Below the pieces are notes generated by a model that was not told where the DNA came from, made no database searches, and saw nothing but the letters and a program-made list of their open reading frames with translations. Positions 1 through 57,000 of a DNA stretch of 64,000 nt are shown here, one piece after another. The stretch's first letter is position 1; every line of letters begins with the position of its first letter. Position numbers and translations under genes: made by a program. Origin of the DNA: Amyelois transitella. Lineage: Eukaryota > Arthropoda > Insecta > Lepidoptera > Pyralidae. The stretch spans positions 1 through 64,000 of the forward strand of contig NC_083511.1 in the NCBI RefSeq assembly GCF_032362555.1. Direction: 5' to 3'.

Positions 1-3000
1 ACCCATATAAACCTAACCCCACCCATATAAACCTAACCCCACCCATATAAACCTAACCCCACCCATATAAACCTAACCCCACCCATATAAACCTAACCCC
101 ACCCATATAAACCTAACCCCACCCATATAAACCTAACCCCACCCATATAAACCTAACCCCACCCATATAAACCTAACCCCACCCATATAAACCTAACCCC
201 ACCCATATAAACCTAACCCCACCCATATAAACCTAACCCCACCCATATAAACCTAACCCCACCCATATAAACCTAACCCCACCCATATAAACCTAACCCC
301 ACCCATATAAACCTAACCCCACCCATATAAACCTAACCCCACCCATATAAACCTAACCCCACCCATATAAACCTAACCCCACCCATATAAACCTAACCCC
401 ACCCATATAAACCTAACCCCACCCATATAAACCTAACCCCACCCATATAAACCTAACCCCACCCATATAAACCTAACCCCACCCATATAAACCTAACCCC
501 ACCCATATAAACCTAACCCCACCCATATAAACCTAACCCCACCCATATAAACCTAACCCCACCCATATAAACCTAACCCCACCCATATAAACCTAACCCC
601 ACCCATATAAACCTAACCCCACCCATATAAACCTAACCCCACCCATATAAACCTAACCCCACCCATATAAACCTAACCCCACCCATATAAACCTAACCCC
701 ACCCATATAAACCTAACCCCACCCATATAAACCTAACCCCACCCATATAAACCTAACCCCACCCATATAAACCTAACCCCACCCATATAAACCTAACCCC
801 ACCCATATAAACCTAACCCCACCCATATAAACCTAACCCCACCCATATAAACCTAACCCCACCCATATAAACCTAACCCCACCCATATAAACCTAACCCC
901 ACCCATATAAACCTAACCCCACCCATATAAACCTAACCCCACCCATATAAACCTAACCCCACCCATATAAACCTAACCCCACCCATATAAACCTAACCCC
1001 ACCCATATAAACCTAACCCCACCCATATAAACCTAACCCCACCCATATAAACCTAACCCCACCCATATAAACCTAACCCCACCCATATAAACCTAACCCC
1101 ACCCATATAAACCTAACCCCACCCATATAAACCTAACCCCACCCATATAAACCTAACCCCACCCATATAAACCTAACCCCACCCATATAAACCTAACCCC
1201 ACCCATATAAACCTAACCCCACCCATATAAACCTAACCCCACCCATATAAACCTAACCCCACCCATATAAACCTAACCCCACCCATATAAACCTAACCCC
1301 ACCCATATAAACCTAACCCCACCCATATAAACCTAACCCCACCCATATAAACCTAACCCCACCCATATAAACCTAACCCCACCCATATAAACCTAACCCC
1401 ACCCATATAAACCTAACCCCACCCATATAAACCTAACCCCACCCATATAAACCTAACCCCACCCATATAAACCTAACCCCACCCATATAAACCTAACCCC
1501 ACCCATATAAACCTAACCCCACCCATATAAACCTAACCCCACCCATATAAACCTAACCCCACCCATATAAACCTAACCCCACCCATATAAACCTAACCCC
1601 ACCCATATAAACCTAACCCCACCCATATAAACCTAACCCCACCCATATAAACCTAACCCCACCCATATAAACCTAACCCCACCCATATAAACCTAACCCC
1701 ACCCATATAAACCTAACCCCACCCATATAAACCTAACCCCACCCATATAAACCTAACCCCACCCATATAAACCTAACCCCACCCATATAAACCTAACCCC
1801 ACCCATATAAACCTAACCCCACCCATATAAACCTAACCCCACCCATATAAACCTAACCCCACCCATATAAACCTAACCCCACCCATATAAACCTAACCCC
1901 ACCCATATAAACCTAACCCCACCCATATAAACCTAACCCCACCCATATAAACCTAACCCCACCCATATAAACCTAACCCCACCCATATAAACCTAACCCC
2001 ACCCATATAAACCTAACCCCACCCATATAAACCTAACCCCACCCATATAAACCTAACCCCACCCATATAAACCTAACCCCACCCATATAAACCTAACCCC
2101 ACCCATATAAACCTAACCCCACCCATATAAACCTAACCCCACCCATATAAACCTAACCCCACCCATATAAACCTAACCCCACCCATATAAACCTAACCCC
2201 ACCCATATAAACCTAACCCCACCCATATAAACCTAACCCCACCCATATAAACCTAACCCCACCCATATAAACCTAACCCCACCCATATAAACCTAACCCC
2301 ACCCATATAAACCTAACCCCACCCATATAAACCTAACCCCACCCATATAAACCTAACCCCACCCATATAAACCTAACCCCACCCATATAAACCTAACCCC
2401 ACCCATATAAACCTAACCCCACCCATATAAACCTAACCCCACCCATATAAACCTAACCCCACCCATATAAACCTAACCCCACCCATATAAACCTAACCCC
2501 ACCCATATAAACCTAACCCCACCCATATAAACCTAACCCCACCCATATAAACCTAACCCCACCCATATAAACCTAACCCCACCCATATAAACCTAACCCC
2601 ACCCATATAAACCTAACCCCACCCATATAAACCTAACCCCACCCATATAAACCTAACCCCACCCATATAAACCTAACCCCACCCATATAAACCTAACCCC
2701 ACCCATATAAACCTAACCCCACCCATATAAACCTAACCCCACCCATATAAACCTAACCCCACCCATATAAACCTAACCCCACCCATATAAACCTAACCCC
2801 ACCCATATAAACCTAACCCCACCCATATAAACCTAACCCCACCCATATAAACCTAACCCCACCCATATAAACCTAACCCCACCCATATAAACCTAACCCC
2901 ACCCATATAAACCTAACCCCACCCATATAAACCTAACCCCACCCATATAAACCTAACCCCACCCATATAAACCTAACCCCACCCATATAAACCTAACCCC

Positions 3001-5584
3001 ACCCATATAAACCTAACCCCACCCATATAAACCTAACCCCACCCATATAAACCTAACCCCACCCATATAAACCTAACCCCACCCATATAAACCTAACCCC
3101 ACCCATATAAACCTAACCCCACCCATATAAACCTAACCCCACCCATATAAACCTAACCCCACCCATATAAACCTAACCCCACCCATATAAACCTAACCCC
3201 ACCCATATAAACCTAACCCCACCCATATAAACCTAACCCCACCCATATAAACCTAACCCCACCCATATAAACCTAACCCCACCCATATAAACCTAACCCC
3301 ACCCATATAAACCTAACCCCACCCATATAAACCTAACCCCACCCATATAAACCTAACCCCACCCATATAAACCTAACCCCACCCATATAAACCTAACCCC
3401 ACCCATATAAACCTAACCCCACCCATATAAACCTAACCCCACCCATATAAACCTAACCCCACCCATATAAACCTAACCCCACCCATATAAACCTAACCCC
3501 ACCCATATAAACCTAACCCCACCCATATAAACCTAACCCCACCCATATAAACCTAACCCCACCCATATAAACCTAACCCCACCCATATAAACCTAACCCC
3601 ACCCATATAAACCTAACCCCACCCATATAAACCTAACCCCACCCATATAAACCTAACCCCACCCATATAAACCTAACCCCACCCATATAAACCTAACCCC
3701 ACCCATATAAACCTAACCCCACCCATATAAACCTAACCCCACCCATATAAACCTAACCCCACCCATATAAACCTAACCCCACCCATATAAACCTAACCCC
3801 ACCCATATAAACCTAACCCCACCCATATAAACCTAACCCCACCCATATAAACCTAACCCCACCCATATAAACCTAACCCCACCCATATAAACCTAACCCC
3901 ACCCATATAAACCTAACCCCACCCATATAAACCTAACCCCACCCATATAAACCTAACCCCACCCATATAAACCTAACCCCACCCATATAAACCTAACCCC
4001 ACCCATATAAACCTAACCCCACCCATATAAACCTAACCCCACCCATATAAACCTAACCCCACCCATATAAACCTAACCCCACCCATATAAACCTAACCCC
4101 ACCCATATAAACCTAACCCCACCCATATAAACCTAACCCCACCCATATAAACCTAACCCCACCCATATAAACCTAACCCCACCCATATAAACCTAACCCC
4201 ACCCATATAAACCTAACCCCACCCATATAAACCTAACCCCACCCATATAAACCTAACCCCACCCATATAAACCTAACCCCACCCATATAAACCTAACCCC
4301 ACCCATATAAACCTAACCCCACCCATATAAACCTAACCCCACCCATATAAACCTAACCCCACCCATATAAACCTAACCCCACCCATATAAACCTAACCCC
4401 ACCCATATAAACCTAACCCCACCCATATAAACCTAACCCCACCCATATAAACCTAACCCCACCCATATAAACCTAACCCCACCCATATAAACCTAACCCC
4501 ACCCATATAAACCTAACCCCACCCATATAAACCTAACCCCACCCATATAAACCTAACCCCACCCATATAAACCTAACCCCACCCATATAAACCTAACCCC
4601 ACCCATATAAACCTAACCCCACCCATATAAACCTAACCCCACCCATATAAACCTAACCCCACCCATATAAACCTAACCCCACCCATATAAACCTAACCCC
4701 ACCCATATAAACCTAACCCCACCCATATAAACCTAACCCCACCCATATAAACCTAACCCCACCCATATAAACCTAACCCCACCCATATAAACCTAACCCC
4801 ACCCATATAAACCTAACCCCACCCATATAAACCTAACCCCACCCATATAAACCTAACCCCACCCATATAAACCTAACCCCACCCATATAAACCTAACCCC
4901 ACCCATATAAACCTAACCCCACCCATATAAACCTAACCCCACCCATATAAACCTAACCCCACCCATATAAACCTAACCCCACCCATATAAACCTAACCCC
5001 ACCCATATAAACCTAACCCCACCCATATAAACCTAACCCCACCCATATAAACCTAACCCCACCCATATAAACCTAACCCCACCCATATAAACCTAACCCC
5101 ACCCATATAAACCTAACCCCACCCATATAAACCTAACCCCACCCATATAAACCTAACCCCACCCATATAAACCTAACCCCACCCATATAAACCTAACCCC
5201 ACCCATATAAACCTAACCCCACCCATATAAACCTAACCCCACCCATATAAACCTAACCCCACCCATATAAACCTAACCCCACCCATATAAACCTAACCCC
5301 ACCCATATAAACCTAACCCCACCCATATAAACCTAACCCCACCCATATAAACCTAACCCCACCCATATAAACCTAACCCCACCCATATAAACCTAACCCC
5401 ACCCATATAAACCTAACCCCACCCATATAAACCTAACCCCACCCATATAAACCTAACCCCACCCATATAAACCTAACCCCACCCATATAAACCTAACCCC
5501 ACCCATATAAACCTAACCCCACCCATATAAACCTAACCCCACCCATATAAACCTAACCCCACCCATATAAACCTAACCCCACCC
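1..5584. repeat. 20-bp telomere-like tandem satellite, about 279 copies
   Basis: The unit ACCCATATAAACCTAACCCC repeats without any visible variant from base 1 to 5580, then breaks after a partial copy at about 5585 into unrelated AT-rich sequence. The unit contains CCTAA, the C-strand form of the insect telomere pentamer TTAGG, within CCTAACCCC. The C-rich strand reads 5' to 3' from the left end, the orientation expected of a left chromosome end. No spacers, no ORFs and no telomere-specific LINE (TRAS or SART type) were seen inside it. It could be a variant telomere, a subtelomeric satellite, or an internal satellite at a contig edge. Confidence 0.97.
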
Positions 5585-5816
5585 ACCCGGGCGAATTTTC
5601 TCATTTATAAATGTTTAAGGAGAAACCATATCGCGTTATATTTCAGATCAGCGCCATCTCTTAATTTCGTTTCAGTAAGTTTTTTGTTGTTTCGCTTTTA
5701 GTAGTTAGATCCACATATCACTTTCCAGAGGAGAACACTGTGTCTTTATGTTTCTTTTGCCCCTTTATGGCTCAGATAAATTAAACCACAGACCTGTTGC
5801 CGATATAGGAATTCTA
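5585..5816. other. Satellite-flanking unique sequence
   Basis: AT-rich sequence between the satellite and the first SINE. No coding potential, RNA gene or repeat was recognised here. Confidence 0.6.
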
Positions 5817-6040
5817 AATAAATAAATATATACGGGACAAATTGAGTTATCGTCGAACTAAATTCGAAACTTGTGTTACGAGATACTTACTCAACGATAC
5901 TATATTTTATAATAATTAATTATATAGATAGGCCAATCAGAGAATGTTCGTTTCTCATAACACCCTTACCAGGATTCGAACCCGGGATCCTCTGTGTCAC
6001 AGACAAGCGCACTACCGCTGCGCCAAACAGGCCGCCATTT
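5817..6040 (-). repeat. tRNA-derived SINE (family A), reverse copy
   Basis: On the minus strand the copy begins with a tRNA-like head containing a B-box-like GGGTTCGAATCC, near 5970-6035. A body and a tail ending in a TCCCGTATATATTTATTTA-type sequence follow. Near-identical copies lie at 23172-23395 (-) and 63068-63325 (+), and the tail alone at 58028-58090. Several copies with the same head-to-tail order support a SINE family. The 67-residue ORF across it is a chance frame. Confidence 0.8.
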
Positions 6041-6403
6041 CTGAATGATTTATTAAGATTTATCAACACAAAGTAAAATTTTGAGATGTAGGGGAACCTT
6101 TCTGAGTACGTTCTACGTGTAACTATTTTTTACTGATACGTCATTATTACTACTTTGCTCATGAAAAGCTTATCTGTCATAAATTTCCTTTTTTTATAAA
6201 TGATTCATTTTGTGGGCAGCAACATGTTCTCACGTGTGTATAAGTGTTATTTCCTTTAAAAATTCTACATTTCGAGATTTATTTTAAACCATAAAACAAG
6301 TCAAATCTTTCATTTTGCTTAGTGAGAAGATGCTTAGGCAGGACACTAGTGTAATATAAAATAATTATTAATGAATGCATTGTGCTTTTCACTTGTAACT
6401 TAC

Positions 6404-6505
6404 CTCCTGGAATCTCTCGCTGCGTTAGCTGTGGAGGCACATCTTGTTTTTCGCTGGTGTTTATGTTGTTGGAGGGTTTAGGTACGCATGCTTCGATCGG
6501 TCGAG
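6404..6505 (-). other. Possible orphan exon with a strong splice donor
   Basis: On the minus strand an open stretch of about 32 codons ends in a consensus donor (GGAG|GTAAGT, boundary at 6404). It reads approximately EACVPKPSNNINTSEKQDVP and continues through PQLTQREIPG. No partner exons or family were recognised, so it may be a gene remnant or chance. Confidence 0.2.
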
Positions 6506-6817
6506 GTCACACTGATTTACATTGCATAAATATAATAGTGTAAAATTTTGTAGCGTTGTAGGTACTTTCTTTTCTTTTAATAATAACTGAGCTATTTTTG
6601 TTACAAAATTTACATTTGCTCAAAGAAATTTATGTCAATAAGTATTGTTTTACCAATGAATAAACAACGGATACGCATTTGCTTACAACGCGTTCTGTGT
6701 TCATTTGCCACAGATAATATATTAGTGATACGTACGAGTGAATGATACCCACAGGCTCGAAGTGACAATGACATCTATTAATATTCACAGTTGTGGGCTC
6801 AACAGAGCCATGATTAA

Positions 6818-7073
6818 TACATACATACAATCACGTCTATATCCCTTGCGAGATAGACAGAGCCAACAGTCTTGAAAAGATTGATAGGCCACGTTCAGCT
6901 TTTGGCCTGATGATAGAATTGAGATTCAAATAGTGACAGGTTGCTAGCCCATCACCTATAAGAAGAATCCCAAGTTTATAAGCATATCCCTTAGTCACCT
7001 TTTACGACATCCATGGGAGAAAGATTGAGTGGTCCTTTTCTTTTTTATATCGGTGCCGGAAACCACGCGGCGT
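6818..7073 (-). repeat. Dispersed SINE-like repeat (family B), reverse copy
   Basis: A roughly 260-bp element that recurs through the window. In forward orientation it starts TGCCGTGTGGTTCCCGGCAC, has a core GGATGTCGTAAAAGGCGACT and GTCTACCCCGCAAGGGATAT, and ends in a (TATG)n tail. Here it is reversed, so the CATA tail is at the left. It is non-coding. A copy at 33822-34078 shows a likely target-site duplication, which supports retrotransposition. Confidence 0.8.
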
Positions 7074-8419
7074 CAAAGACAATTTGGTTCACAATTAAAT
7101 AGTGTTAATCAACAACACATTTATTTGGATAAATAGGTAGCCACAAAAACATTTCATGTTAAATGTTGCCAATACGAGACCATATAGCTCGCACTGTCAA
7201 AAAGTAATCAGATCTCGTGTAGAGCCAAATTTCTAACCCCACATGCCCAGCCCTAAATCGATAAGCCCTAATTTTACACTCAAGTTACGGGGAAATACTA
7301 CAGCCATAGCTCGTACTGCGTAGTTCGTAGCGCGTAGCAGAGTTTTGCCACTATAATCTCGTAGGCGTGCAAACCGTGGACGTAACTGGCGAGTCGGCCG
7401 CACGGAAAGAGTTCAAAAGATTGAATAGATTTTTAAGCTCAAGCCCATATGACGAATAGCAAAAAGTCCGTGCGGCCTTATTTCGACCAAATTTGATTAC
7501 CATAAAGGCGGTTCTAGTGAGTTAAGCTTAAAAGATAGATATATTTATTTATTTATTTATTTCAGAAACTATATACTGTCGTGGACATTTTTTGAGATTA
7601 TTTCAAAAGGAATAATTCTTTCATACATATATTTTTGGTATCTTGCTTGTGAGTGGTTCTTCCGTTTCGTCCTAATCGCCATTCCAGGTCAAAAGTCGTT
7701 ATGAATATTGTAATTAACCATATTTTTTTTATTGAATAAGGTAGGACGTACTTTTATCTTAAATATCCATCATATATATCAGGTTTAAACCTCATAACAA
7801 AAAAAATTTTAGAACAAAAACATGTATTTTTTTCATTCCTCTCCTTGTTCAAATGGACCCTCAGAACGTTGTGACACACTTTTGTTGACTTTCCTAGGAG
7901 AAAAGTACATATTTTTTTTTCTTATATACAAATGTATTCACTGACTATTATAAACCTGCAATACAGTATTTTTTATAAGTGTTTAATATGGAAAGAATTG
8001 TCTTCAAAGTTTTGTCAACCCAAAAACTACATTGCCTTCCACAAAAATATAACATTAAAATTTTTATGCACGTACAATATATCTATTTCTTGCCAAACAA
8101 AAGACGCTCCCGCGCACCTCAGGCCGTCGATACAAGTCGTCAAGAGAGGTCGCACGCTGCCCGGACAAAATATTTTTAGGATTTAATTTCTGAAAACAGC
8201 GTTTGTCACGAGTAAGTAAACATTACTTTCCGTAGTTTTTGTATGTGAGTGTAGACGTAAAAAAATAATTTTAACTTTTGGTAGTTAGCATACTGTAGGG
8301 TCTAGTTATCAATTAATTATGAATATCTAGCCTTTATTAATTCATGAGTAAATTCAGGAAATCTGCTCAAACTTCATTTCTTTCCCTATAATTCCCTTCC
8401 GTTCCCTCCAATTTTTTAA
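7074..8419. other. Gene-free AT-rich stretch
   Basis: No supported gene, RNA gene or classified repeat. The short ORFs at 7932-8186 overlap each other in different frames and have no recognisable domain. Confidence 0.55.
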
Positions 8420-17864: not shown

Positions 17865-20800
17865 TTATGTATCGGAGAGCGAGGGCGGCGGCGCGAGCGG
17901 CTGCAGCTCGTCGGGCAGCGCGTGCAGCCGCAGCTGGCGCTCCAGCAGCGCGTCCGCCAGCGCCGCCGCGCCGCCGCACCACGCCGCGCCCGCCACGCAC
18001 AGCCACTGCAACACGCACACACGTCACGCTCAGCCACTACAGCACACGTCACGCGGCCCGCAGACACGGCACCCACCTTGCAGTGCGGCAGCAGGTCGCG
18101 CGCGCGGCACAGCGCGGCGGCGGGCGCGGCGCGCGGGCGGCGCGCGGCCGCCTCCAGCGCCGCCAGCTGCAGCAGCGCGCCGCCCGCGCCCGCGCTGCTC
18201 GCGCGTCGCACGCTGCGGTACACGCGCTCCGCGTCTGCGCATATCAATTTGGCATTAAATAATGCGTGCTGAAATTTAAACTCTGTGTTAAGTGACATTT
18301 TTTTTTTTTTTTTTTTTATTTTTTTTTTATTTATTTGGTTCACAAAACTGACATTACACAACAACAAATCTTTAGTAACACATCAGAGACTCGTGCGAAA
18401 GTGTAACATCTTCTCGAAGTGAACACAACATGCGTTCTATTAAAACAAAAGAAAAAATAAAGTAGTACATACACTGAATAATAAAATTGAAGTTGAAAAC
18501 AAGAAAATAACAATCATGTGAGCATATTTCTCCTGGCAGTGTTGGTCGATGCACCGAAAATATCAAATTTTGTTGCCGCATCGTTATATGCAGAGCAGAT
18601 GCGGACCATCGGTGAATTAACCAAATACAATGTGCGTGCAAAAGGGATAGAAAAAGTTTTTCTGTTGTGAAGTCGGCTGCTTGGACGTGGAACAGATATG
18701 TTTATTTTACTTAATAGTTCAGGGGAATCAATTAGACCATTAATTAGTCTGTGCAAAAACAAAATATCCAATGTGTTACGTCTTTGATGCAGTGAATTAA
18801 TTCCAAAATATGATAGTCTGGACTCGTAAGATTCCAAAGTGCGACACATATTTTTTGAGTAGGTTAGGTGATACAGGAATTTCTTTTGAATCTTTTCCAA
18901 TCGACCGGAGTGGACTTGAAAAAACGGGTTCCAAACAACAGCACAATATTCCAACAAACATCTCACGAAGCAATTAAACAAGAGAATTGTTATTTCAGGA
19001 TCATTAAAAAATTTACATTTTCTTATTACAAAACCAGCCAATCTAGAGCCTTTTTTGGCGATGTGATCAATGTGTTCTTTAAAATCTAGTTTGCTGTCTA
19101 TGATCACGCCTAAATCACGGGTATGAGACAACTGAGGTAAGGGATGATTATTGATGTGGTAGAATGAAGACTTAGGGCACATTTTACGTGAAAATTTTAT
19201 GTGGAAACACTTAGACTCATTGAGTGACATTTTATTTTTACTGCACCATAAAATCAAGCGATCAATATCGTTTTGTAGTTGAATAATGTCATCATCACTT
19301 TTTATGACACGGTAAAGTTTAAGATCATCAGCAAACAAATGATATTTAGAGGATATAGTAGTACCCAAGTCATTAATAAATAATATAAAGAACAAAGGCC
19401 CTAGAAGAGAGCCTTGAGGAACACCCGAAGGAACATCTTTGGCTGCTGATTTAAAACCCCTTATCTTGACTAACTGAGATCTGTTTCGAAGATATGACTC
19501 ACACCATCTCAGAAGGCTACCACAAATTCCCACATGTTCCAACTTCTGGACAAGTAGAGAGTGATCAACCACATCAAAAGCTTTAGAAAAATCAGTATAA
19601 ATGGAATCTACTTCATTTTTATGATCCAGTGCATCATAAATGTCAGTGACGTATTCAAGCAAGTTTGATGTGGTTGACCTGCCCCTCAGAAACCCATGTT
19701 GATGAGAATCTATGATAGGTTTAACATGATACAGTATTTTCTCCTGAACCAATGACTCAAAAAGCTTCGGGATAGCAGACAGTATGGATATTGGCCTGAA
19801 ATTTCTGATGTCACAACAATCTCCCTGCTTGTGTATTGGAGTAATGTGAGCAAGTTTCCACTGAGTTGGAAATTGGCCACATGTGAGAGATTTGTCGAAA
19901 ATATAATGCAAAGGTGTAACAAGTTGTGAAGCACAATTTCTGAGGAAAATAGAAGGGATAGAGTCAGGACCAGGTCCCTTATTGGTGTTAATGGACTCAA
20001 GTGACTTAAGAATCTCGTCCTTTGAAAGCTGAATTATACCCAAAGAAGATTGGCTCATTGATGATGTATCAGGGTTCTGTGGTGAGGCTGATGATTGATC
20101 ACGTGAGTATGTCGAGTTGAAGTAATCTGAAAATAAATCGCAAATCTCCTGACCACCACTGGCAGTTTGGTCACCAAGAAACATTTCATCGGGTATATCA
20201 TTGCTGTTTGACCTAGTGGATTTAATGAATGTCCAGAAATATTTCGGGTTATTTTTGATGTAAGATTTTGAGTCAATCTTTAACTTGTTTAAACAGTCTT
20301 GTAGTAATTTGTCACAACGATCGCGAAGAATTTGATAGGATAGTAAGTCTCGAGGGTTTAAGTATTTTTTGTATTTGCGGTGAAACTTTGCTTTCTCCTT
20401 TAAAGCTTTGATGAGGGGATTGCTAAACCAGTTGGAGTAGCTATTATTACCTTTATAACATGTGGGAGTATATTTTTCAATGATAGGATTTATAGTGTTA
20501 TAAAATAATTCAACTGTTTCGTCAATACTTTGCGTAGGTTTAAATAAAGTGGTCCAATCTATTAATTCCAACTCTTCGTTTATTTTTGAGTAGTTTGCTT
20601 TTGAAAAATTAAGATACATCGTTTTTTTAATTTTAGATGGTTTAGAAGAAGGCAATTTGAATGAAATATCTAAGGTTGGATGATGGGTATCTTCCGGCAC
20701 CAAAGGATTGCTGCAACTGGATACTTTGAAAAAATTGTTCGAGTTGGTAACTACGAGATCTAGTATACGGTTGTTAGAGTTTGGAATATGATTAAGTTGA

Positions 20801-22470
20801 TTAAGGCTGTTGAATGCTAGAGCATCTACTAGTAGGTTGTCAATAGGGTCGGTAGAGGAATCAGGTAAAAGAAAATTGGACGAAGGATCAAGGTTCCATC
20901 GAATTCCAGGACGATTGAAATCACCAGCCAGGATTAAAATAGATTGTTGAGGAAGCTTATGTTGAACAACGTCCGTTAAGTTAGACATTGCTTCCTTCAT
21001 ATTCGTATAAGATACTGGAGAGGGAATATATATACCGCCTATGCATATTGGGATAATGGAGCTTCCTTTTTTCACTTTGAGTAGCACCCACATATCCTCG
21101 CTATTTGACTCCCATTTCAGTTTACGCACTGGATTGTATTTTTTAAGGACTGCAATGATGACCCCTCCACCCCCCTCCCTCTCAGATGCCGTAGAATAAC
21201 GATCACGCCTGAAGATTGTATAACGGCTATCAATAATTTCGTGAGAAAAAACAGATTCCTTCAGCCATGACTCCGTCAACAGAATAACATCCGCCTCTTG
21301 TTTCAGTGCATTGGCCAGAATTATGTCAGTTTTTGTATTGAGACCTCTCACGTTTTGATACAGAAAATTTAGATTTAATGTTTTTAAAGATACCATTCAA
21401 ATAATTAAGTTTAAGGATGAAAAGTGAAAAGTATTTTCAACCAGGTACAATACGACGTATTACAGGGTACTCAAGAAATCTATATCTCTAACTACAAAAC
21501 TCTTTGAGGTTGGGTCTTTTCTCAAATGCACCTTGCCGTTTCTGACCCACACGAACTGGTATTTCTTCTCCTTTGCGAATTTCCGTGCTGCTGCGTGGAG
21601 TTGCTTATTGCTGGGAGATAGATGTTCGCAGATGTACACTGGTGTCCTTTCGCCTGCTAACCCGAAATGAGAAGAATTCAGCTTATCGTGTTGGTGGACC
21701 CTATTGAAGGTCTTGACTGCTGCAATTAGATTGTCACGGACCAGTGGGCTGGATAATTTTACGACTATAGAACGAGGACGGGATGAATCCTGGTTGACCT
21801 TTGCGACTCGGTGATAGTTGAGTACTTCGTGCTCTCGAAGACCTAGTCCCACAGTGGCGCTGAGTTGCTTTACAATAGTGCTCAGATTCTCAGATTTGTG
21901 TTCAGGCACGCACTGGATTTCAATATTGCAGTCGCGTGACTGTTGCTCAAGATTATTCAGCCTGGTGTTCAAATCTACAACTTGTGATTTTAACCCAGCG
22001 TTTTCAGTCTCTAATGTCCTTATCCTGTTCTCCTTAGACTCAAGGTCAGCTTTAACTTCCTCGTACCTAGATGACATATAGACAATGCTCTCCGTAAGTT
22101 CCTGTAGTTTGCTCCTTGTGTCCACACTTTCAGCCGCAAAATCGCGTTTGATATCTCTAGAGAATTTTGATAGGTGTTCTTCAAGCAATTTTTCTAAGTA
22201 AGTTTTCAAATCCTCGCCAATATTACTGGGAGATGTGTCTGTTGTTGCTGGTGAAGGAGTGGTCACTCGACTATCAGCAAGTTTACAATCTTGGCACTTC
22301 CAAGTTGCCTTGTACGTCTTAGATTCCTTGCTGAAATTCTCTGAAGGAACACCCAAACACTGGTAATGAAAAGAATTCGGGCATCTAGAGCAAGATTTTA
22401 CATCACTCGCTTTAATTTGCTTTGAACATTTTTTGCAGAGACTCATATTGCAGCATTCAAAGATTTCTTG

Positions 22471-25500: not shown

Positions 25501-28500
25501 CGTCTAGCCTTTGTGAGTAGTCATTATTTTTGAATCACAATTGTATCATTAAGCCATTCAGGTGAAGTAAATGTGACCTATGACATTGTGAGTATTGTCT
25601 CAGTGTGACCTGTCTGGTGGCAGTAGTGCGGCGGCTGCAGCATCAGGAAGTAGTGCACCGCCCTCGCGTCCAGCTTGCGGGCGGCGTGCGCGGGCGGCAG
25701 TCGCTGCGCGGCGCTCAGCAGCGGCAGCAGCGCCTCGCCGCCCGCCGCGCCCCACGCCGCGCCCCGCAGCGCGCCCCGGGTCCCGCCTTCCGCCGCCGAC
25801 AGTACCCACTCCGAAAGAGGGAACAGCGGCACCTGCGAACATTAACGAGCCTGAGCGCGGTGACCCGCAGCAAGAAGAGCGCGGCCGCGTCGGCCAGCGG
25901 CAGCAGCAGCTCGGCCAGCGCGGCGGCGGGCGCGCTACACTACCTTGGCCAGCCGCAGCGCGGTGACCCGCAGCAAGAAGAGCGCGGCCGCGTCGGCCAG
26001 CGGCAGCAGCAGCTCGGCCAGCGCGGCGGCGGGCGCGCTACACTACCTTGGCCAGCCGCAGCGCGGTGACCCGCAGCAAGAAGAGCGCGGCCGCGTCGGC
26101 CAGCGGCAGCAGCAGCTCGGCCAGCGCGGCGGCGGGCGCGCTACACTACCTTGGCGAGCCGCAGCGCGGTGACCCGCAGCAAGAAGAGCGCGGCCGCGTC
26201 GGCCAGCGGCAGCAGCAGCTCGGCCAGCGCGGCGGCGGGCGCGCTACACTACCTTGGCCAGCCGCAGCGCGGTGACCCGCAGCAAGAAGAGCGCGGCCGC
26301 GTCGGCCAGCGGCAGCAGCAGCTCGGCCAGCGCGGCGGCGGGCGCGCTACACTACCTTGGCCAGCCGCAGCGCGGTGACCCGCAGCAAGAAGAGCGCGGC
26401 CGCGTCGGCCAGCGGCAGCAGCAGCTCGGCCAGCGCGGCGGCGGGCGCGCTACACTACCTTGGCGAGCCGCAGCGCGGTGACCCGCAGCAAGAAGAGCGC
26501 GGCCGCGTCGGCCAGCGGCAGCAGCAGCTCGGCCAGCGCGGCGGCGGGCGGCGCGCGCTGCGGGTCGGCGGCGGCCCGCGCGGCGCCCGCGTCGCTGCGC
26601 CAGTGCGCCGCCCCGCGCAGGCGCTCCACGCGCACCCACACGCCCGACTGCGGCAAGCCGCTTGCGATAGCACGCTCCTGTGCGAGAACACAGTGGTAAT
26701 ATTAGCTCCTTACATGACAAATTGGCGTTTTCTCATACTGGGCAGTTCACTCACAAATTTCTCCCCTTTAGTAAGGAATTCCAAATTCAAATTAATACAG
26801 CTATTTACACATGTATTTATGTTTCGTTAACTGTCATTAATTTGTTTTTTTTTTTCTTCTGATTTTTCTGTTTGCATCACTCAGTTTACAAAAATGGAAA
26901 ACTTGAAATATCGCGTTATTTACGAGTTCGAATTCCATCGTGCGGAAACGGCTCGAAGGGGATAAAGATGTGTATGGCGGTCGCGTCGCAAAAGAAAACA
27001 CAGTGCGCTTTGGGTTCCAAGGTTTTTGGTTCTGGAAATTTCGACCTGCAGAAGAAGCCCCTTGGACGGCCGGAGACCCTAGTTGAAAATGAAGACTTGA
27101 AAGTTATTGTGGAAGCGTAACCATCGCAAACCACATCCGATGTAGCTTCAGGCTTCGGTGTTAGTGATAAAACTATTTAAATCCACTTGAAGCAAATTGG
27201 GAAGATTAAGAAACTTGAAAGGTAGCTACCTCACGAATTGAGTGAAACAATCCGGCAAACGCGTGTCGACTGCTGCGTTACATTACTTAACCGGCACAAT
27301 AATTAAGAGCCATAACCTACAATCGCTGCACTAGCGGACCGGATGTTATTTATTTTAATGACGAAAGCACCTTAAATTCGACAATATATGAGACTGAACA
27401 TATAATTAAGATCGAAAGAATCATTACCTTTTTCGCTGAAATAATCGTTGCTATAAACAGTTGACACCACATTCACTTTTCACTGCACTTGATACTCGAC
27501 CAAAACATGTAAATGTACTATAGTTTAGCAGCTGTCCACGCAGACGCATCGCTCACTCAAGAAGAAGAGAGACGGATGTCGAACGCTGCCGAACGCAAAG
27601 GCCGATTGTGCCTCTTTGTCGCTCGCGCGTGCACTTCAAGCCTTACATAGAACGCCTCAGAGCGAGGTAACGCCGCATGAGTCATGTTTTTTCGTGCGTG
27701 CAGCCGGCTCAATCGAATTATAAGACGTTGTCACGTCCAAAAAAATACTTTTAGGCGTTTGGTGGACTAATTCCAGTGTCCTCCATTATAGTTTTCTCAA
27801 ATCTGGCCAGACGATTACGTCTATTGTCAGCAATTGCAAACTGTGATCGAAAAGCTAGCTGCTAAACAACCGAGGCTGGTCAATCGCTCCACGCCACTAC
27901 TGCTTCACAAAAACACTAGACCACACACTGCACAACCGACGGCTACGAAATTAGAGGAGCTTCAATTAGCATGTCTAAGACATCCACCATACTCCCCGGA
28001 CCTTGCTCCAACAGATTACCATTTATTTCGAAATTTTCGAAAAAACTCGTAATTTTCAGTTCAAACATTCATATCAAAGATATTATTGATTCCCGATCGA
28101 ATGGTTTTTTTTAGTAAAGGCTGATGCCTTTACTAAAAAACCTGAACTACCTATGGGAAGGCAAAAGTGCATAGATAATAATGGTTCTTACTTTGATTAA
28201 ATAAATATGTTAAATTAAAAAATATTCGACCTTTTGTTCCTCCTATACCAAACGCCAATTTTATATGTAGGGACCTAATACTTATTAAAAAAAAATAACT
28301 CCTACTAAGCGCAAATAGCTACCTCTGCCTCTATCAGCGCCTCCTCTATCTGCTGGGCGCGAGGCGGCGGCGGCGGCGGGAAGGCGGGCGAGGGCGGCAG
28401 GCTCATGCTCAGCGCCAGCTCCAGCAGCAGGGTCAGCTGCTCCCACAGCCCGCCGGACTGCAGGAACGAACCTGAATGCATTACATATTGTTACTCTATG

Positions 28501-40400: not shown

Positions 40401-41680
40401 ATAATTCCTACTCCACCAATGACTTTTTCTGAGTTATGTACCCTTGCAGTGAGGAAACACATAACAAGGAAACATATAGATATACAACCGTCTAAATGTA
40501 TATGTTTCCATGATGTGCAACCATGATCGTAATGGGCTAAAATTTATCGTAATTATAAAAACCAACGGGGAGAGAGGTGGATGGCAGGTCTTAAAGTATT
40601 TGACGCATTTGTATCCATGAATTCGAAAATTTTACAAATGTTTATAATCATTAGCTCAAGAGCATCAGAATCCGACGAGCTTGCATAAAGAGACTTAAGT
40701 ACCGGCACGTGCCGACACGACTGCTGCAAATTCACTGTTCGGTACATCGGCACGGTCATGTGCGGATAGGCCTTCACGGATCTGTCGGTCACGTGTCGGC
40801 ACTGTTGTGTGCGGATAGACCTTAAAAGTGCGAGAGATAAGTGACACTATAGGGTTCTCAATCAAATCCGTTAAAAACGCCCGGGATTGGCGAAAAAAAA
40901 ATCCTTTTCATCAGGATAATGCACCAGTGCACAAGTCAGTTGTTGCAATGGCTAAACTCCATGAACTGCGTTTTGTAGTATTAAACCATCCCCCCTATTC
41001 ACCGGACTTAGCACCATCGGACTATTATCTGTTCCCTAATTTAAAGAAACACCTGGCTGGAAAGAAATTTTCCACAAATGAAGAGGTCATAACTGAGGCG
41101 GAACGTTTTTTCGACGAGTTGGAAGAATCGGCCTATAAGAGTGGCATAGAAGCCCTAGAATATAGATGAAATAAGTGTATTGAGACAAGAGGGGATTATG
41201 TAGAAAAATAAAAATATTTTTTTGTATAAATAAAGAAAAAAATATTTTTATTTTTCTTTCTTAGTTTTCTTAGACGGGCCGACAATTTTTCAAACCGCCC
41301 TCGTACCTTCGTATCTTTTCTGCTATTGTAGACTGTATATTGTGTGTGATGCGTACAGCTATATTGATTATGTACCTTTGTGTACGTTTAACTAAGAAAA
41401 AGAAATTAAACTTGTAAACAAAAGCTGTTGGTTCTCCTGGAATATAAATAAATACGTAAATACGTATAAATAGTATTGCATAATATTGTATGTATTTGGG
41501 CAGGTGTGCCTGTTGGGCGGTGCGGAGGTGTCTCTCCGGGACGCGATGCGCGCGCAGCAGTCGGACGAGCAGCTGGCGGCGCTGGTGCGGCGCGCGCTGC
41601 GCAACAAGCGGCCGCGCCACGCCGGGATGGCCGCGCTGGCGCGGGCGCCGCACCGGCCCATGATCCTCATCGGCGGCTAG
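34423..41680 (+). CDS. MOCS1: MOCS1A: radical-SAM GTP 3',8-cyclase (MoaA-like)
   Basis: Eight phase-consistent exons: 34423-34639, 37268-37435, 37628-37791, 38269-38353, 38803-38866, 39212-39350, 39754-39864 and 41504-41680 (374 residues, close to the usual length). With MOCS1B it converts GTP to cyclic pyranopterin monophosphate, the first step of molybdenum cofactor synthesis, in mitochondria. The N-terminus (MLRSSVISKGLRLV) looks like a targeting peptide. The radical-SAM cluster is TERCNLRCQYCMPAEG (C-x3-C-x2-C), formed across the exon 1/2 junction. KLRLTGGEPTLR and SMTTNGLVLT follow. The second cluster is FCSSCNRLRLTADGNLK|VC (C-x2-C-x13-C) across the exon 7/8 junction. The protein ends MILIGG-stop, and the essential Gly-Gly tail is kept. 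Exon 1 is separated from exon 2 by a 2.6-kb repeat-filled intron. A mariner scrap lies in intron 7. Confidence 0.96.
34764..34787 (+). repeat. Poly(G) run of 24 in MOCS1 intron 1
   Basis: An uninterrupted G homopolymer in otherwise AT-rich intron sequence. Its length is likely unreliable in any sequencing technology. Confidence 0.9.
35256..35437 (-). repeat. SINE-like family B, degraded reverse copy
   Basis: Recognisable as TTATATCCCTTGCTGGGTTG, then CAAATAGTTACAGGTTGCTA and CCTTTTACAACATCCATGAG. It has internal deletions and many substitutions, so it is older than its neighbour at 35456. Confidence 0.7.
35456..35719 (+). repeat. SINE-like family B, full-length forward copy
   Basis: From TGCCGTGTGGTTCCCGGCAC to GACGTGACGATATGTATGTA. 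Together with the reverse copy at 35256 it makes an inverted pair in MOCS1 intron 1. Confidence 0.85.
36560..37075. repeat. Heavily decayed family B remnants
   Basis: Scattered matches such as CTACCCCGCAAGGGATATAG (forward, 36603) and reverse pieces near 36660-36720, 36820-36930 and 37020-37060. The 98-residue ORF at 36483-36779 is made of this material and is not considered a gene. Confidence 0.5.
37886..38057 (+). mobile_element. Helitron-like short repeat in MOCS1 intron 3
   Basis: Contains CAACGGATTTTGATGCGGTT and ends GTGCGAAGCCGGGCGGGTCG CTAG before T, a common Lepidopteran Helitron 3' end. The 5' end is uncertain. Confidence 0.45.
40900..41210 (+). pseudogene. Mariner transposase C-terminal fragment
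   Basis: Reads FHQDNAPVHKSVVAMAKLHE, then [40 protein letters not shown] and [27 protein letters not shown] holds the third catalytic Asp. The N-terminal DNA-binding half is missing. It is a different mariner lineage from the element in NRDE2. It lies in MOCS1 intron 7 in the same orientation as the gene. Confidence 0.85.
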
Positions 41681-41682
41681 CG

Positions 41683-42246
41683 CGCGCCTACTGCACCGGC
41701 CGCCTCTCGCACCTGGACCGGCGCGGGCGCGCGCGCATGGTGGACGTGGGCCGCAAGCCGGTGACGGCGCGCGCGGCGCGGGCGGGCTGCCGGCTGCGCG
41801 TGGGCGCGCCGCTGCTGCGCCTGCTGCGCGACGCCGCGCTGCCCAAGGGCGACGCGCTCAGCGTGGCGCAGGTGGCGGGCGTGCTGGCCGCCAAGCGCAC
41901 GGCCGACCTCATCCCGCTGTGCCACCCGCTGCCGCTGGACTGCGTGCGCGTGCGCGTGCGGCTGCCGCGCGGGCCCGCGGGGCGCGGCGGCGCGCTGGAG
42001 GTGCGCTGCGAGGTGCGCACGCGGCACCGCACGGGCGCCGAGATGGAGGCGCTGACGGGCGCCGCGGTGGCCGCGCTCGCGCTCTACGACATGTGCAAGG
42101 CGGTGGACAAGGGCATGCGCATCACGGACCTGCGGCTGCTGCACAAGTCCGGCGGCCGCAGCGCCTGGCCCGCCGACGAGGAGGACGCGTCCGCCGACGA
42201 GGAGGACGCGCCCGCCGCCGCTCCGCCACCGGAACCAGAATCGTGA
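41683..42246 (+). CDS. MOCS1: MOCS1B: cyclic pyranopterin monophosphate synthase (MoaC-like), second cistron
   Basis: In the same exon as the MOCS1A end but in the -1 frame relative to it. The 5' limit given is the first codon after the MOCS1A stop, and the true start is unknown. The MoaC domain begins LSHLDRRGRARMVDVGRKPV and continues KGDALSVAQVAGVLAAKRTA, LIPLCHPLPLDCVRV, GAEMEALTGAAVAALALYDM and CKAVDKGMRI. These include the conserved P-L-C-H-P and E-M-E-A-L-T active-site segments. It rearranges the MOCS1A product into cyclic pyranopterin monophosphate. The frame is also open upstream through MOCS1A, as expected if a spliced fusion exists. The first in-frame ATG (41737) lies inside the conserved domain. 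The C-terminus adds a short acidic DEEDASADEED tail. GC content is extreme. Confidence 0.92.
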   Translation, partial: RAYCTGRLSHLDRRGRARMVDVGRKPVTARAARAGCRLRVGAPLLRLLRDAALPKGDALSVAQVAGVLAAKRTADLIPLCHPLPLDCVRVRVRLPRGPAGRGGALEVRCEVRTRHRTGAEMEALTGAAVAALALYDMCKAVDKGMRITDLRLLHKSGGRSAWPADEEDASADEEDAPAAAPPPEPES

Positions 42247-51032: not shown

Positions 51033-54000
51033 GGATTGCCAATTTTAAAAAGATTTATGTACAGAGTGTACTGAAATTTTGATTTAAGTTCAAATTAAAC
51101 TACAATTAATTACGAGGTTCCTGTGCCAAGCTCGAGCCAGATGTTTTTATCATTAAGGTAATCATCAGTCCTATAATAAGCCTTCCCACAAAGTACTTTC
51201 TTTACATACTCTTTGAATTTTCGGTTGGGCATATCAAGAACAGACTCCGGCAACCTATTATAAAATCGTATACAGTTCCCCATAAATGATTTACTGACTT
51301 TGCTAAGCCTATGAAACGGCATGACTAATTTATGTTTATTACGTAAATTTCTATCAGTTGTGGCACTAACTTTTTGAAAAAAAGAGGTATTTTTCCTAAC
51401 ATACATTATAAGATCAAAAATGTACTGGGACGCTACTGTAGGTATGTTTATTTTCTTAAAGAGTTGTCTTAACGAGTCTCTTGGTCCTAAGCCGTAAATT
51501 GCGCGAACGGCCCTTTTCTGAATTATAAAAATAGTTTGTATATCAGCCGCGCTACCCCATAAAAGTAAACCATAAGATAACAAGCTATGAAAATAGCTAA
51601 AATAAACAAGCCTAGCTGTAGCTACATCTGTCAATTGTCGGATCCTCCTAACAGCATAAGCGGCAGAGCTAAGTCTATTGGATAGTTTAGAAATATGAGC
51701 ACCCCACTGTAGCTTTGCATCAATTATAATTCCTAAAAACTTTGTATTTTCAACAAATTCTAATTTCTGGCCTTCCAGTGTTATGTCAGTATTGGCCTGC
51801 CTTACGTTTGGAAGGGTAAATTTAATGCATTGGGTCTTATTAGCATTTAAAAGAAGATTGTTGGTTGAGAACCAGATAGATATGGCCGACAGTATATTAT
51901 TAACCGAACTTACATTTTCGCTATGGCGATCTAATTTAAATATTAAAGAAGTGTCATCGGCAAACAGCACTATACCCGCCTGTTTTTCCACCATAAAAGG
52001 CAGGTCATTGACATATACCAAGAAGAGGAATGGTCCTAAAATTGAGCCCTGAGGAACACCCATTGAGACGCTTGATCCGCTTGACTTTACTCCATTAATA
52101 TCTACAGTTTGAAGCCTATCAGTCAAATAGGATGCCATTAGTTTAGTTGATTTGTGGTCAAACCCATATTGACGAAGTTTACGCAAAAGTGTCTGATGAT
52201 CTACGCAATCAAATGCTTTAGAGAGATCGCAAAAGACTCCAACTGAATCCTGTGAACTCTCCCACGCGTCATAGATTTGAGTAACAAGTGCTACTCCCGC
52301 ATCAGTGGTGGACTTCCCGGCAGTGAACCCATATTGTTGGGAATGGAAAATGTTATTGATTTTAAAATATTGTTGCATTTGATTAAGCATCATCTTCTCA
52401 AACACCTTGCTCAAAACTGGCAATATAGAAATAGGTCTATAATTGCCAAGGACTGTTTTCTCCCCTTTTTTGAATAGAGGTATTAATTTGCTACATTTCA
52501 TTAAATTTGGAAAAATACCCTCATCAATACATTCATTAAATATAAAAGCTAGATCAGATGCAATAATATCTATGATTTGACTTATGATACTAACAGACAT
52601 ACCCCAATGGTCTTCAGACTTTTTCAAATTAAGTTGTTTGAACGCCTTTAATATATTATCAGAGTTAACATATTTAAATTTAAAGACAGATTTGATGGGA
52701 GTTGTGTTATTATTAAGTAGGGTTTCAGCGCGCAATGGACAAGAGTCAACGTCAGAAGTTAGCTCCACAGGGATTTTTGCAAAGAAATTATCAAAAGCAT
52801 TTACTATGTCCTGAATTTTAGAAATACTTTTGTTACCGGATGATATTTGTTTAATACTGTCTCTATCTTTGATTTTGCCAGATTCTTTATTAATAATGTT
52901 CCATGTTTCTTTAATTTTATTTGGTGCGTTGTTTATTTTACTACTTATGTGCAAAGACTTGGCTTGCCTGCAAACTTTTTTAAATAATTTTGAATAATTT
53001 TTGACATATTCTACAAAACTGGGGTCAAAATTGTATTGTTTCTGGGCATATAAGTCATATAACTTATTCCTACTCTTGTGAATACCTACTGTAGCCCATT
53101 CACTGAACTGTAATCTATTACGAATATTGACTTGTTTCTGCTTGAACCTTTTTGAGTATTCAGCAGAAATCATATCAAATAAATTGTTATAATGTTCATT
53201 AGGATTATTTCCAGAATATGTTAAAGTATTTAATTGATTTGCAATGTTTATTTTAAATTTTCTTATGTTTTTGGAAGAAAGAGGTCTACACATAATTTTA
53301 TCATTATTTAAATTGTTTAAGGACTCTTTCTCAAAGGTAACATATTGACCGGTGTGATCCGAGGGCAATTTGTGAATAATTGATTTCCGTATATAAAGAT
53401 TATTGCAAAAAAAATTATCCAGACACTTGGCAGATGTAGATGTTATTCGGGTTGGTTCGAAAAAAACATACTCTAAATTATAATATTTAAACAAATTAAT
53501 AAATTGTATACTAACGGTTGATTTAACTAAAATGTCAATGTTAAAATCACCACAAATAATTAATTTTTTATTACATTTTGAGGTAACATGTAACACTTGA
53601 TCCATTATTTTTAAAAATTGTTTAAATTCACTGTTTGGGGGACTGTACACACAAACAATTATATGATGATCTAGCTCGGCACAGGTCACTTCGGCACACC
53701 GCTCAACCGAAAGTCTGGTTATGTCTGTTCGCTCTTTACAGCGAAGACCGCATTTGATAAATATCATAGACCCACCTCTAATTGCAGACTTTCTGTTTAA
53801 GCAGCTCACAATATTATAATTGTTTAGGCTGAACATCATCTCCCCCTCCATGAGCCAATGCTCAGTCAAACATAAAATGTCCACATTTAATTCTTCTAAA
53901 ACTAGTTGTACTTCTAATTCTTTGCCGGGAAGACCTTGTATATTTTGATGGATAATTCTTAACCCTCGAGGGTTTCCCGTTGTCTGAGTGTGCAGTTTAA

Positions 54001-57000
54001 ATTAACTGTCAAGTCAACAGAGTTACCATCACACAGAGTTGGCAATTCTGTAGTCAACTTATAATTAATATTTCGCTTACAATGTAAACTCATCCAAACA
54101 TTAATATTACTAGCTACCAATGTAGCAATTTTGTTCTTATGGTATCTGGATAGAAATATTCTATCATTGGTCTTAAAACAATCACCTATGAAATTGTTTG
54201 TGTCAAAAAACACAAATTTGTCACTGTGACGACATGTCAACGAATGCATAACATTATTGAGTAGGTGAATGTTTTTATTAAGTTTTGGAGACTGGCAACT
54301 CATATATGGAAAAGCACATAAAATTATTTGGTTAACTTTTAATTTATTCAAAGATTCAAAACAGTTAATTATATCTTTCCTGCCAATTTTAAAACTATCA
54401 CCAATTAATATTACTATGGTGGATTTATTATTTAAATTTACATTATTAATTCTCTTAATAATTTGGGTAAAAGATGCATTTGGCATGCAGTAATTTATAA
54501 AAGACTGATTTAGGGTATCACAAATATACAGGGCGAGGGCAGCGACGGCGAGCTGTCGGACGCGGGGTCGCGGCGCGCGGGGGTGGCGGGGGGTGCGGGG
54601 GGCGCGGCGGGGGCGGGGGCGGGGGCGGAGGCGCGCCGGCTCATGGCCGAGCTGTTCCCGAAGCTGGAGGCCGAGCTGGTCGGGCTCGTCGCGCACATCG
54701 AGCGCCAGGACCAATAGTGAGACTCTTTGTATAGTACCTACACCTTTAAATACAAATAGAGGGAACAGAAGTCATTTGATTCTGATTGCTATTTTGTTTT
54801 ATTTTTTCTCATATTTATCATAAAATTCGACTGTTTTGTTTATTACGTTAAATTGAGCAATTAAATTATACAAATATAATAGCGGCGCGATGCGCGCGCT
54901 AGCGTGCGTCGGTCGTCGCGTGCTGGGCGCGGCCGAGAGCGGCGCGGGGGCTGCGGGGGGCGGCGCGGGGGCTGCGGGGGGCGGCGCGGGGGCTGCGGGG
55001 GGCGGCGCGGGGGCTGCGGGGGGCGGCGCGGGGGCTGCGGGGGGCGAGGCGCGGTGGTCTCGTGGCGCGCTGGCGGCAGTAGCGGTGGTGGCCAAGCGCG
55101 GCGCAGACAAGTTTATAGCAGAACGGATTGCCGCCTTCCCCGATGCCGTTAGGCAGGTGAGCCATCTTAATACTTCCTTACTTTGAACATTTTTGGTAAG
55201 CAATGATGAAGAAATGTTCGAATGTGTGTGTATGTGTGCGCAGGCGGCGCGGCGCCCCAAGTGCGGTCTGCTGAGCTTCCTAGCGGAGTTCGAGGAGTTC
55301 AGCGCCGCCGCGGAGGAGATCTTCGCGCGCTCCAGGCGCGCCGACCTCGACCGCTGGTGAGAAATTCCAGTTTATTATTCACTAGAGCACGTCCGTGATT
55401 CACTTAAAGATACAAAGTAACAATTGATTTTTAAATTGATAACATAATTTTTTTTTACACATTTTTGGGTTTGGTACAACATGAGCGTGTGTGTGAGGGC
55501 AGGTACGTGTCGCTGGGGGCGGGCATGCTGAGCGCCATCGCGCAGGCGGAGCACCCGCGCACGCCGCGCGCCGTGCTGCGGCTGGAGAACTACCACCGCC
55601 TGCAGGGCGTGCTGGCCGCGCGCCGCGTGCCCGCGCTGGAGCCCGCGCGGCTCGCCTGCCGCAGCCGGTACAAGGTCAGTGTACAGCCAGCACTAGCACC
55701 GCCTGCAGGGCGTGCTGGCCGCGCGCCGCGTGCCCGCGCTGGAGCCCGCGCGGCTCGCCTGCCGCAGCCGGTACAAGGTCAGTGTACAGCCAGCACTAGC
55801 ACCGCCTGCAGGGCGTGCTGGCCGCGCGCCGCGTGCCCGCGCTGGAGCCCGCGCGGCTCGCCTGCCGCAGCCGGTACAAGGTCAGTGTACAGCCAGCACT
55901 AGCACCGCCTGCAGGGCGTGCTGGCCGCGCGCCGCGTGCCCGCGCTGGAGCCCGCGCGGCTCGCCTGCCGCAGCCGGTACAAGGTCAGTGTACAGCCAGC
56001 ACTAGCACCGCCTGCAGGGCGTGCTGGCCGCGCGCCGCGTGCCCGCGCTGGAGCCCGCGCGGCTCGCCTGCCGCAGCCGGTACAAGGTCAGTGTACAGCC
56101 AGCACTAGCACCGCCTGCAGGGCGTGCTGGCCGCGCGCCGCGTGCCCGCGCTGGAGCCCGCGCGGCTCGCCTGCCGCAGCCGGTACAAGGTCAGTGTACA
56201 GCCAGCACTAGCACCGCCTGCAGGGCGTGCTGGCCGCGCGCCGCGTGCCCGCGCTGGAGCCCGCGCGGCTCGCCTGCCGCAGCCGGTACAAGGTCAGTGT
56301 ACAGCCAGCACTAGCACCGCCTGCAGGGCGTGCTGGCCGCGCGCCGCGTGCCCGCGCTGGAGCCCGCGCGGCTCGCCTGCCGCAGCCGGTACAAGGTCAG
56401 TGTACAGCCAGCACTAGCACCGCCTGCAGGGCGTGCTGGCCGCGCGCCGCGTGCCCGCGCTGGAGCCCGCGCGGCTCGCCTGCCGCAGCCGGTACAAGGT
56501 CAGTGTACAGCCAGCACTAGCACCGCCTGCAGGGCGTGCTGGCCGCGCGCCGCGTGCCCGCGCTGGAGCCCGCGCGGCTCGCCTGCCGCAGCCGGTACAA
56601 GGTCAGTGTACAGCCAGCACTAGCACCGCCTGCAGGGCGTGCTGGCCGCGCGCCGCGTGCCCGCGCTGGAGCCCGCGCGGCTCGCCTGCCGCAGCCGGTA
56701 CAAGGTCAGTGTACAGCCAGCACTAGCACCGCCTGCAGGGCGTGCTGGCCGCGCGCCGCGTGCCCGCGCTGGAGCCCGCGCGGCTCGCCTGCCGCAGCCG
56801 GTACAAGGTCAGTGTACAGCCAGCACTAGCATAATCTGTATTTTCCCAAATAATTAATCTGTTATATTTATTTTTTCAAATAACTTTGAAATCGTAGATG
56901 GGATGTGAGGTACATCGAGACTTTGTTTTTATTACCAGCTTATATTATTGGTATAACTACAGCAGTTTTGAATTATCTGGGAAAGATTCCTTTGAATTAT

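Follow-up and report, generated by a model that had tools for sequence, protein, structure and literature searches.

The left end of contig C7 (NC_083511.1) of the moth Amyelois transitella opens with a 5585-bp array of perfect, telomere-like 20-bp repeats. This array is not the telomere itself. At most contig ends of this genome, the order from the tip inwards is canonical (TTAGG)n with non-long-terminal-repeat (non-LTR) long interspersed nuclear elements (LINEs), an array of 12–20-bp units that contain ACCTAACCC, a conserved element of ~85 bp, and the chromosome. Taken jointly, the observations make it likely that the C7 array is a telomere-proximal block of this shared layout that was homogenised locally and, with less weight on this last part, that the adjacent element is a boundary element maintained by selection. 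We analysed the first 64,000 bases of the contig (C7:1-64000, hereafter the window) within the genome assembly of 327,366,114 bases in 33 contigs. C1–C32 are 4.7–14.0 Mb each and were assumed to be chromosomes, so that 64 ends were counted (L, left; R, right); C33 has 15,205 bp. The features of the window that bear on this finding are as follows.

1..5585, + strand: minisatellite at the C7 left end, 279.25 perfect units of ACCCATATAAACCTAACCCC (G strand GGGGTTAGGTTTATATGGGT), truncated by the contig start (Tandem Repeats Finder, TRF, and direct check).
5571..5591, + strand: array/element junction ACCTAACCCCACCCACCCGGG (genome matches of ACCTAACCCN{0,12}CCCGGG).
5586..5671, + strand: conserved chromosome-end element, CCCGGG ... 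ATCGCG ... GCGCCATCT (alignments of 9 and 44 copies).
5651..5659, + strand: GCGCCATCT core, reverse complement AGATGGCGC (G[CA]CATCT present in 44/44 copies).

The array at the left end of C7

The array has 100% identity over its 5585 bp, with no indels or mismatches by either TRF or the direct check, and its outer limit is base 1 of the contig. A search of the window allowing 3 mismatches recovered 279 units, compared with 0.01 expected from shuffles. The C-rich strand is devoid of G, and the GC skew is −1.0 in both 2-kb bins that lie fully within the array. The original prediction for this stretch described about 279 perfect 20-bp units from the first base, with TTAGG within the unit on the G strand and the C-rich orientation right for a left chromosome end; all of this was confirmed, the array being one base longer than it gave. 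Its remark that recent or active copying lies behind the homogeneity was also right, and one of its two models, in which recombination or recent expansion keeps a satellite uniform, is supported. If a butterfly mutation rate of 2.9e-9 is assumed, 5585 identical bases imply a turnover within about 2e5 generations, an estimate laden with assumptions. The recurrence of the unit at other scaffold ends, to which the prediction had looked, did not favour a telomere: the exact C7L unit is present at C3R and C27R, but 15–59 kb inside those contigs, and other units are found at other ends.

Canonical telomere repeats and telomerase

Besides C7, 20 left contig ends (C1–C6 and C8–C21) were sampled over their outermost 10 kb. 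Runs of (CCTAA)3 or longer were found at 18 of them, the exceptions being C14 and C16, and 11 of the 20 open with (CCTAA)n no more than 5 bases from the tip; (TTAGG)3 on the same strand was found at none of the 20. Some contig tips consist of N. Genome-wide, the exact 40-mer (CCTAA)8 gave 41,345 and 41,222 matches, and the reversed control gave 0. One telomerase RNA-binding domain (PF12009, E 4.5e-12) was found, at C22:3756511-3756879 in an open frame of 712 aa. Together with the (CCTAA)n tips, this TERT domain indicates that the species has a telomerase gene as well as the canonical telomere repeats of insects.

A search of the 64-kb window for (TTAGG)3 that tolerated up to 2 mismatches found none. 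Contig C7 breaks off inside its array; therefore, a canonical telomere is expected further out, although none is seen at C7, and no outer canonical/array edge is visible there. The lack of TRAS/SART-type elements in the window probably has the same cause. The statement in the original prediction that neither (TTAGG)n nor TRAS/SART was present stands for the window; elsewhere in the genome, (CCTAA)n occurs at contig ends and is abundant in the assembly as a whole, and a TRAS1-like LINE is present on C20 (see below). Its central proposal, a non-canonical telomere repeat, has to be abandoned because canonical (TTAGG)n lies distal to the arrays at 18 ends and is present at 18 of the 20 other left ends. 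A telomere-like repeat at the start of a contig need not be a telomere.

Layout of the contig ends

When all searches were combined, the element was found at 50 of the 64 contig ends (25 left and 25 right), with its C-rich strand facing outward. Element and flank were read at 42 of these 50 ends; at C5R, C6L, C6R, C9R, C30L, C30R, C31L, and C31R, the element is represented by search matches alone. We tabulated 45 junctions from 43 ends, comprising 44 elements and the array of C12R. The array is present at 44 of the 45 junctions, the exception being the second element of C10L. Junctions and elements are located 5.6–132.2 kb from the contig ends. With short tandem units (12–20 bp) near the ends and a fixed outward orientation, the arrays can be classed as subtelomeric minisatellites.

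The junction pattern ACCTAACCCN{0,12}CCCGGG has 43 matches in the genome, 41 of which point outward within 92.8 kb of a contig end (reversed control, 2); the remaining two are internal and have unrelated spacers. A looser CCCGG junction pattern gave 27 and 77 matches (control, 5). Among the 100 of these 104 matches that were listed, 47 are units of a single 19-bp array on C12, and about ten are chromosome-internal with unrelated spacers. A search independent of the arrays used the 85-bp C29R element alone, a query that retrieves its own subtype; all 29 matches are terminal and outward, at a median of 42.5 kb and a maximum of 132.2 kb from the end, a terminal zone that makes up ~2.6% of the genome. 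A spacing pattern designed for all subtypes gave 40 matches, of which 37 are terminal and outward and 3 are internal (C16, C19, and C29), with 3 in the control. A dispersed transposon that carries the array was rejected because internal copies of the element are few, namely, none in the element-only search and a number equal to the control in the spacing search.

A query with window positions 5586–5960 matched at 39 of 40 scored places only past approximately query base 218, in a dispersed repeat; therefore, the search was repeated with 5546–5800. This query recovered the C7 junction on C3, C14 (twice), C19, C20, C24, C27, and C28, always within 63.1 kb of a contig end. Positions 5816–5958, just inside the element, are part of this abundant dispersed repeat (1323 preliminary candidates, 40 of them scored).

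The canonical sequence CCTAACCTAACCTAA abuts arrays at 21 places (control, 0), once each at 18 ends and three times on C31. The three C31 junctions involve both strands of one block 126–132 kb from the right tip; this region (C31:13907756-13913673), with an element and mixed-strand canonical/array junctions, resembles an inverted or fused telomere. The outer array edge is 0.7–28.8 kb from the element, and the long spans may contain inserts. Paired or partial copies of the element were also observed (C10:21570 and 22877; C14:15541 and 15775; C1:34889 and 45626), one of which is sometimes arrayless.

Diversity and uniformity of the array units

Units hardly ever vary within a given array; between ends, they often do. 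Across the 44 arrays there are 21 distinct units (12 bp, one unit; 16 bp, six; 19 bp, three; 20 bp, eleven). All of them contain ACCTAACCC, which doubled as the search word for most arrays, and arrays of another kind may therefore have escaped detection. An additional unit was found at the canonical/array junctions on the right of C31. Over the 140 bp beside the element, the periodicity is perfect in 42 of the 44 arrays (C26L, 0.93; C27R, 0.99), and of 13 longer stretches (951–1973 bp), 11 are at 100% and two, C19L and C27R, at 99%. The variants seen are the last unit of C27R, an extra ACCC within C19L, and C26L at 93%. Both edges of the array were read at 17 ends, and at 15 of these, the outer unit is the same as the inner one. 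Such private arrays are potential probes to distinguish many moth chromosome ends.

A near copy of the C7 array, with one changed base in the unit, is located on C20 at 55.0–55.7 and 61.9–63.0 kb. It is interrupted by a 6.2-kb non-LTR element, poly-T first on the given strand, and the unit is the same on either side. The insertion point is the CCTAA portion of the array unit. The inserted LINE possesses an RVT_1 domain and an endonuclease that matches TRAS1 ORF2p (PDB 1wdu, E 5e-13).

1678-7872 within C20:54000-63999, strand not stated: TRAS1-like LINE, ~6.2 kb, with overlapping endonuclease and reverse transcriptase (RT) frames.

Two open frames of this copy hold the endonuclease and the RT; they overlap, and the shared stretch contains a 20-bp tandem duplication, so that the copy may be broken.

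The conserved element

In the alignments of 9 and 44 copies, identity drops sharply past the GCCATCT block. The motif is exact in 41 of the 44 copies, and in 43 of the 44, CCCGG lies 67–70 bp from G[CA]CATCT. In window positions 5586–64000, GCGCCATCT occurs once, with about 0.4 expected. A subtype of 20 copies, associated with 16-bp arrays, has a mean pairwise identity of 0.83–0.87 inside the element and of 0.57 falling to 0.37 beyond it; the corresponding values for the eight-copy subtype of C7L are 0.79–0.92 and 0.43–0.46 falling to 0.34. Within both subtypes, identity is down to 0.34–0.37 by about 200 bp. Over all copies, it is 0.60–0.72 inside the element, different subtypes being about 60–70% alike. 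The flanks are mostly unrelated (median matched fraction 0.02 over 990 row pairs, a crude measure). With its fixed spacing, divergent filling, and sharp edges, the element looks like a protein-bound site.

On the reverse complement (AGATGGCGC in C7), AGATG[GT]C is present in 44/44 copies (AGATGGC in 41/44) and bears a possible resemblance to the insect CTCF core. In a butterfly study, CTCF sites were predicted with matrix MA0205.1 (PMC10945631). The element may function as a CTCF-like site or as a promoter of the type that produces telomeric repeat-containing RNA (TERRA), and it is a well-delimited candidate for a site of telomeric transcription or insulation.

An LTR-like family shares CCATATCGCG and GCCATCT with the element (e.g., C3:7979332 and C3:7984654), and several of its members are paired ~5 kb apart. 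A common regulatory site or a common ancestry of this family and the chromosome-end element is possible. In one genome search with 45 matches, 16 terminal ones were kept, and 27 of the LTR-like family and two seemingly unrelated ones (C5:7342196 and C21:5797594) were set aside.

Origin and possible role of the arrays and the element

A single telomerase template cannot yield different units at different ends; local homogenisation fits the observed diversity. The C7R and C8R elements are identical (86/86 bp), whereas 2 of the 16 positions of the unit are not the same at these two ends, which indicates that the array changed as a whole and the element did not. We infer that the arrays were amplified and homogenised locally, end by end, with limited exchange between ends. 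One unit would have been amplified and would have replaced the whole array while the neighbouring element persisted; the amplification may have proceeded by slippage, by unequal sister exchange, or by rolling-circle copying that began with a unit close to the element, routes that are indistinguishable here. Selection may have preserved the element as a boundary, bound by proteins, that separates the telomere from the chromosome, which is the weaker part of the proposal. Arrays replaced whole beside an unchanged element would represent a natural experiment on concerted evolution.

Several observations weigh against this interpretation. By these searches, 14 of the 64 ends lack the element (C11L, C12L, C12R, C16L, C16R, C17L, C20R, C21R, C23L, C25R, C26R, C27L, C32L, and C32R). 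C12R bears a 19-bp array without an element, and the second element copy on C10L has no array. The outer variants of C14R (18 bp) and C26L (19 bp) differ from the inner units of these ends. Some units are common to several ends, the commonest, ACCTAACCCGCCGTTA, being found at 10. Sharing of flanks extends beyond the element in C8L/C10R (96% over 190 bp), C13R/C23R (93% over 171 bp), and C2L/C18R (88% over 187 bp), and some pairs of ends are recent duplicates. With units and some flanks common to several ends, exchange between ends or their shared ancestry also plays a part. Moreover, both the turnover and the selection are inferred from one assembly.

The same anatomy might have no function at all. 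The element would then have spread by ectopic subtelomeric exchange, and the arrays would be neutral slippage by-products at the telomere/element junction. This explanation, to which we give an appreciable chance, though a clearly less than even one, conflicts only with the weaker part of our interpretation, the selected boundary. It is favoured by the flanks that align beyond the element in the three pairs above and by the start of the unit, which resembles its own junction copy (CCCCACC in the C7L kind and CCCGCC in most 16-bp units), as expected if the arrays were born there. However, most flank pairs do not align although the element is still recognisable, and the 67–70-bp spacing and the G[CA]CATCT core are retained despite the limited likeness between subtypes. 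A more elaborate possibility is that the element is an insulator and an outward promoter with a CTCF-like site, setting the telomere apart from the chromosome and driving telomeric RNA, and that the self-homogenising array serves as a molecular tag for many ends and as a sacrificial buffer that telomere-targeted LINEs can enter. We regard this as unlikely; if true, the element/array module, with its insulator, promoter, tag, and LINE buffer, may perhaps be general in Lepidoptera.

It is rather improbable that the length or perfection of the arrays is largely an assembly artefact caused by looped extension or consensus smoothing. The C7 array reaches the contig start, 5 of the 20 sampled contigs have sizes in multiples of 2,500 bases, the N tips may be gaps, and the same window has two unrelated near-perfect 103-bp arrays in GC-rich sequence. 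Nevertheless, as many as 21 units occur among the 44 arrays, the array is delimited externally by canonical repeats at 18 ends, the unit of the C20 array is unchanged across the 6.2-kb LINE, and variants persist in C27R, C19L, and C26L. A cut-and-heal signal, by which ends would be trimmed in some cells and telomeres re-added as in nematode chromatin diminution, appears highly improbable. In its favour, most contig ends have a short element nearby that borders telomere-like DNA on the inside, and Oscheius tipulae has precise internal telomere-addition sites at all chromosome ends (PMC8022731). The distal sequence read, however, contains arrays, (CCTAA)n, and LINE fragments (no gene annotation was made). 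The other model of the original prediction, a longer telomerase RNA template, agrees with the outward G/T-rich strand, the TTAGG within the unit, and the array at the contig start. Nevertheless, the unit differs between ends, with 21 units in four lengths, the C7 unit lies 15–59 kb inside C27 and C3, and (CCTAA)n is found at 18 of the 20 other left ends and distal to the arrays at 18 ends. A telomerase with a 20-nt template as the maker of a non-canonical telomere is refuted for the species as a whole.

Comparison with known systems

In budding yeasts such as Candida and Kluyveromyces, a single long telomere unit is used at every end and makes up the tip. The moth arrays are similar in having uniform units of about 20 bp with the G/T-rich strand outward, but their units vary by end and sit inside (TTAGG)n. 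Core X of yeast is likewise a subtelomeric element common to chromosome ends, a likeness in description; the moth element differs from the core X anatomy in being about 85 bp, and we know of no counterpart of the private arrays beside core X. Nucleosomes positioned by ORC and Abf1 are common to yeast X telomeres (PMC7243337).

In humans, a CTCF site is located about 300 bp from 29-bp subtelomeric repeats (PMC6600276), and TERRA is driven by CTCF (PMC5727389). Human TERRA promoters (61-29-37 repeats with CTCF) share with the moth ends the short tandem repeats inside the telomere, the occurrence at many ends, and a conserved site nearby. Unlike the human repeats, the moth units are often end-specific, nearly always uniform, and telomere-like, and the likeness of their neighbouring element to CTCF sites is only a possible one.

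According to PMC12036569, TRAS and SART insert between CCT and AA. The canonical repeats and the C20 LINE, with its TRAS1-like endonuclease and a position near the CCT/AA site, agree with the lepidopteran (TTAGG)n and TRAS/SART system; the 12–20-bp arrays and the ~85-bp element are located proximal to it. They add an extra layer to the usual picture of insect telomeres, in which retrotransposons accompany (TTAGG)n or a variant motif. PMC9841428 reports no variability of the telomere motif in Lepidoptera and Trichoptera and describes candidate lepidopteran telomerase RNAs. Neither the arrays nor the element are described in the available portions of five accounts of insect telomeres (PMC9841428, PMC12036569, PMC8977481, PMC13338207, and PMC9498494). 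No published description was found in a search that had most of the subscription literature outside its reach, and the unit and element strings gave no matches in it beyond three chance hits of 12 letters. The C7 40-mer is absent from viral and prokaryotic contig collections and the element string from viral ones, which says little.

Other features of the window and of C33

Two unrelated near-perfect arrays, both with a period of 103 bp, are located in GC-rich sequence at window positions 25854–26550 (6.8 copies) and 55589–56831 (12.1 copies). It is odd that the two have the same period, which may reflect an assembly artefact. The array at 55589–56831 seemingly repeats an exon end plus a splice donor. 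At positions 18514–21396 and 51110–54001 there are two long open frames of LINEs in which endonuclease and RT domains were recognised, and an open frame of the MoaC family (Pfam E 2.8e-48) occupies 41470–42246. C33 starts with trnM-trnI-trnQ(-)-nad2, an order that is typical for ditrysian Lepidoptera and supports the lepidopteran reading of the sequence; trnQ alone was called by ARAGORN, and the remainder was read by eye.

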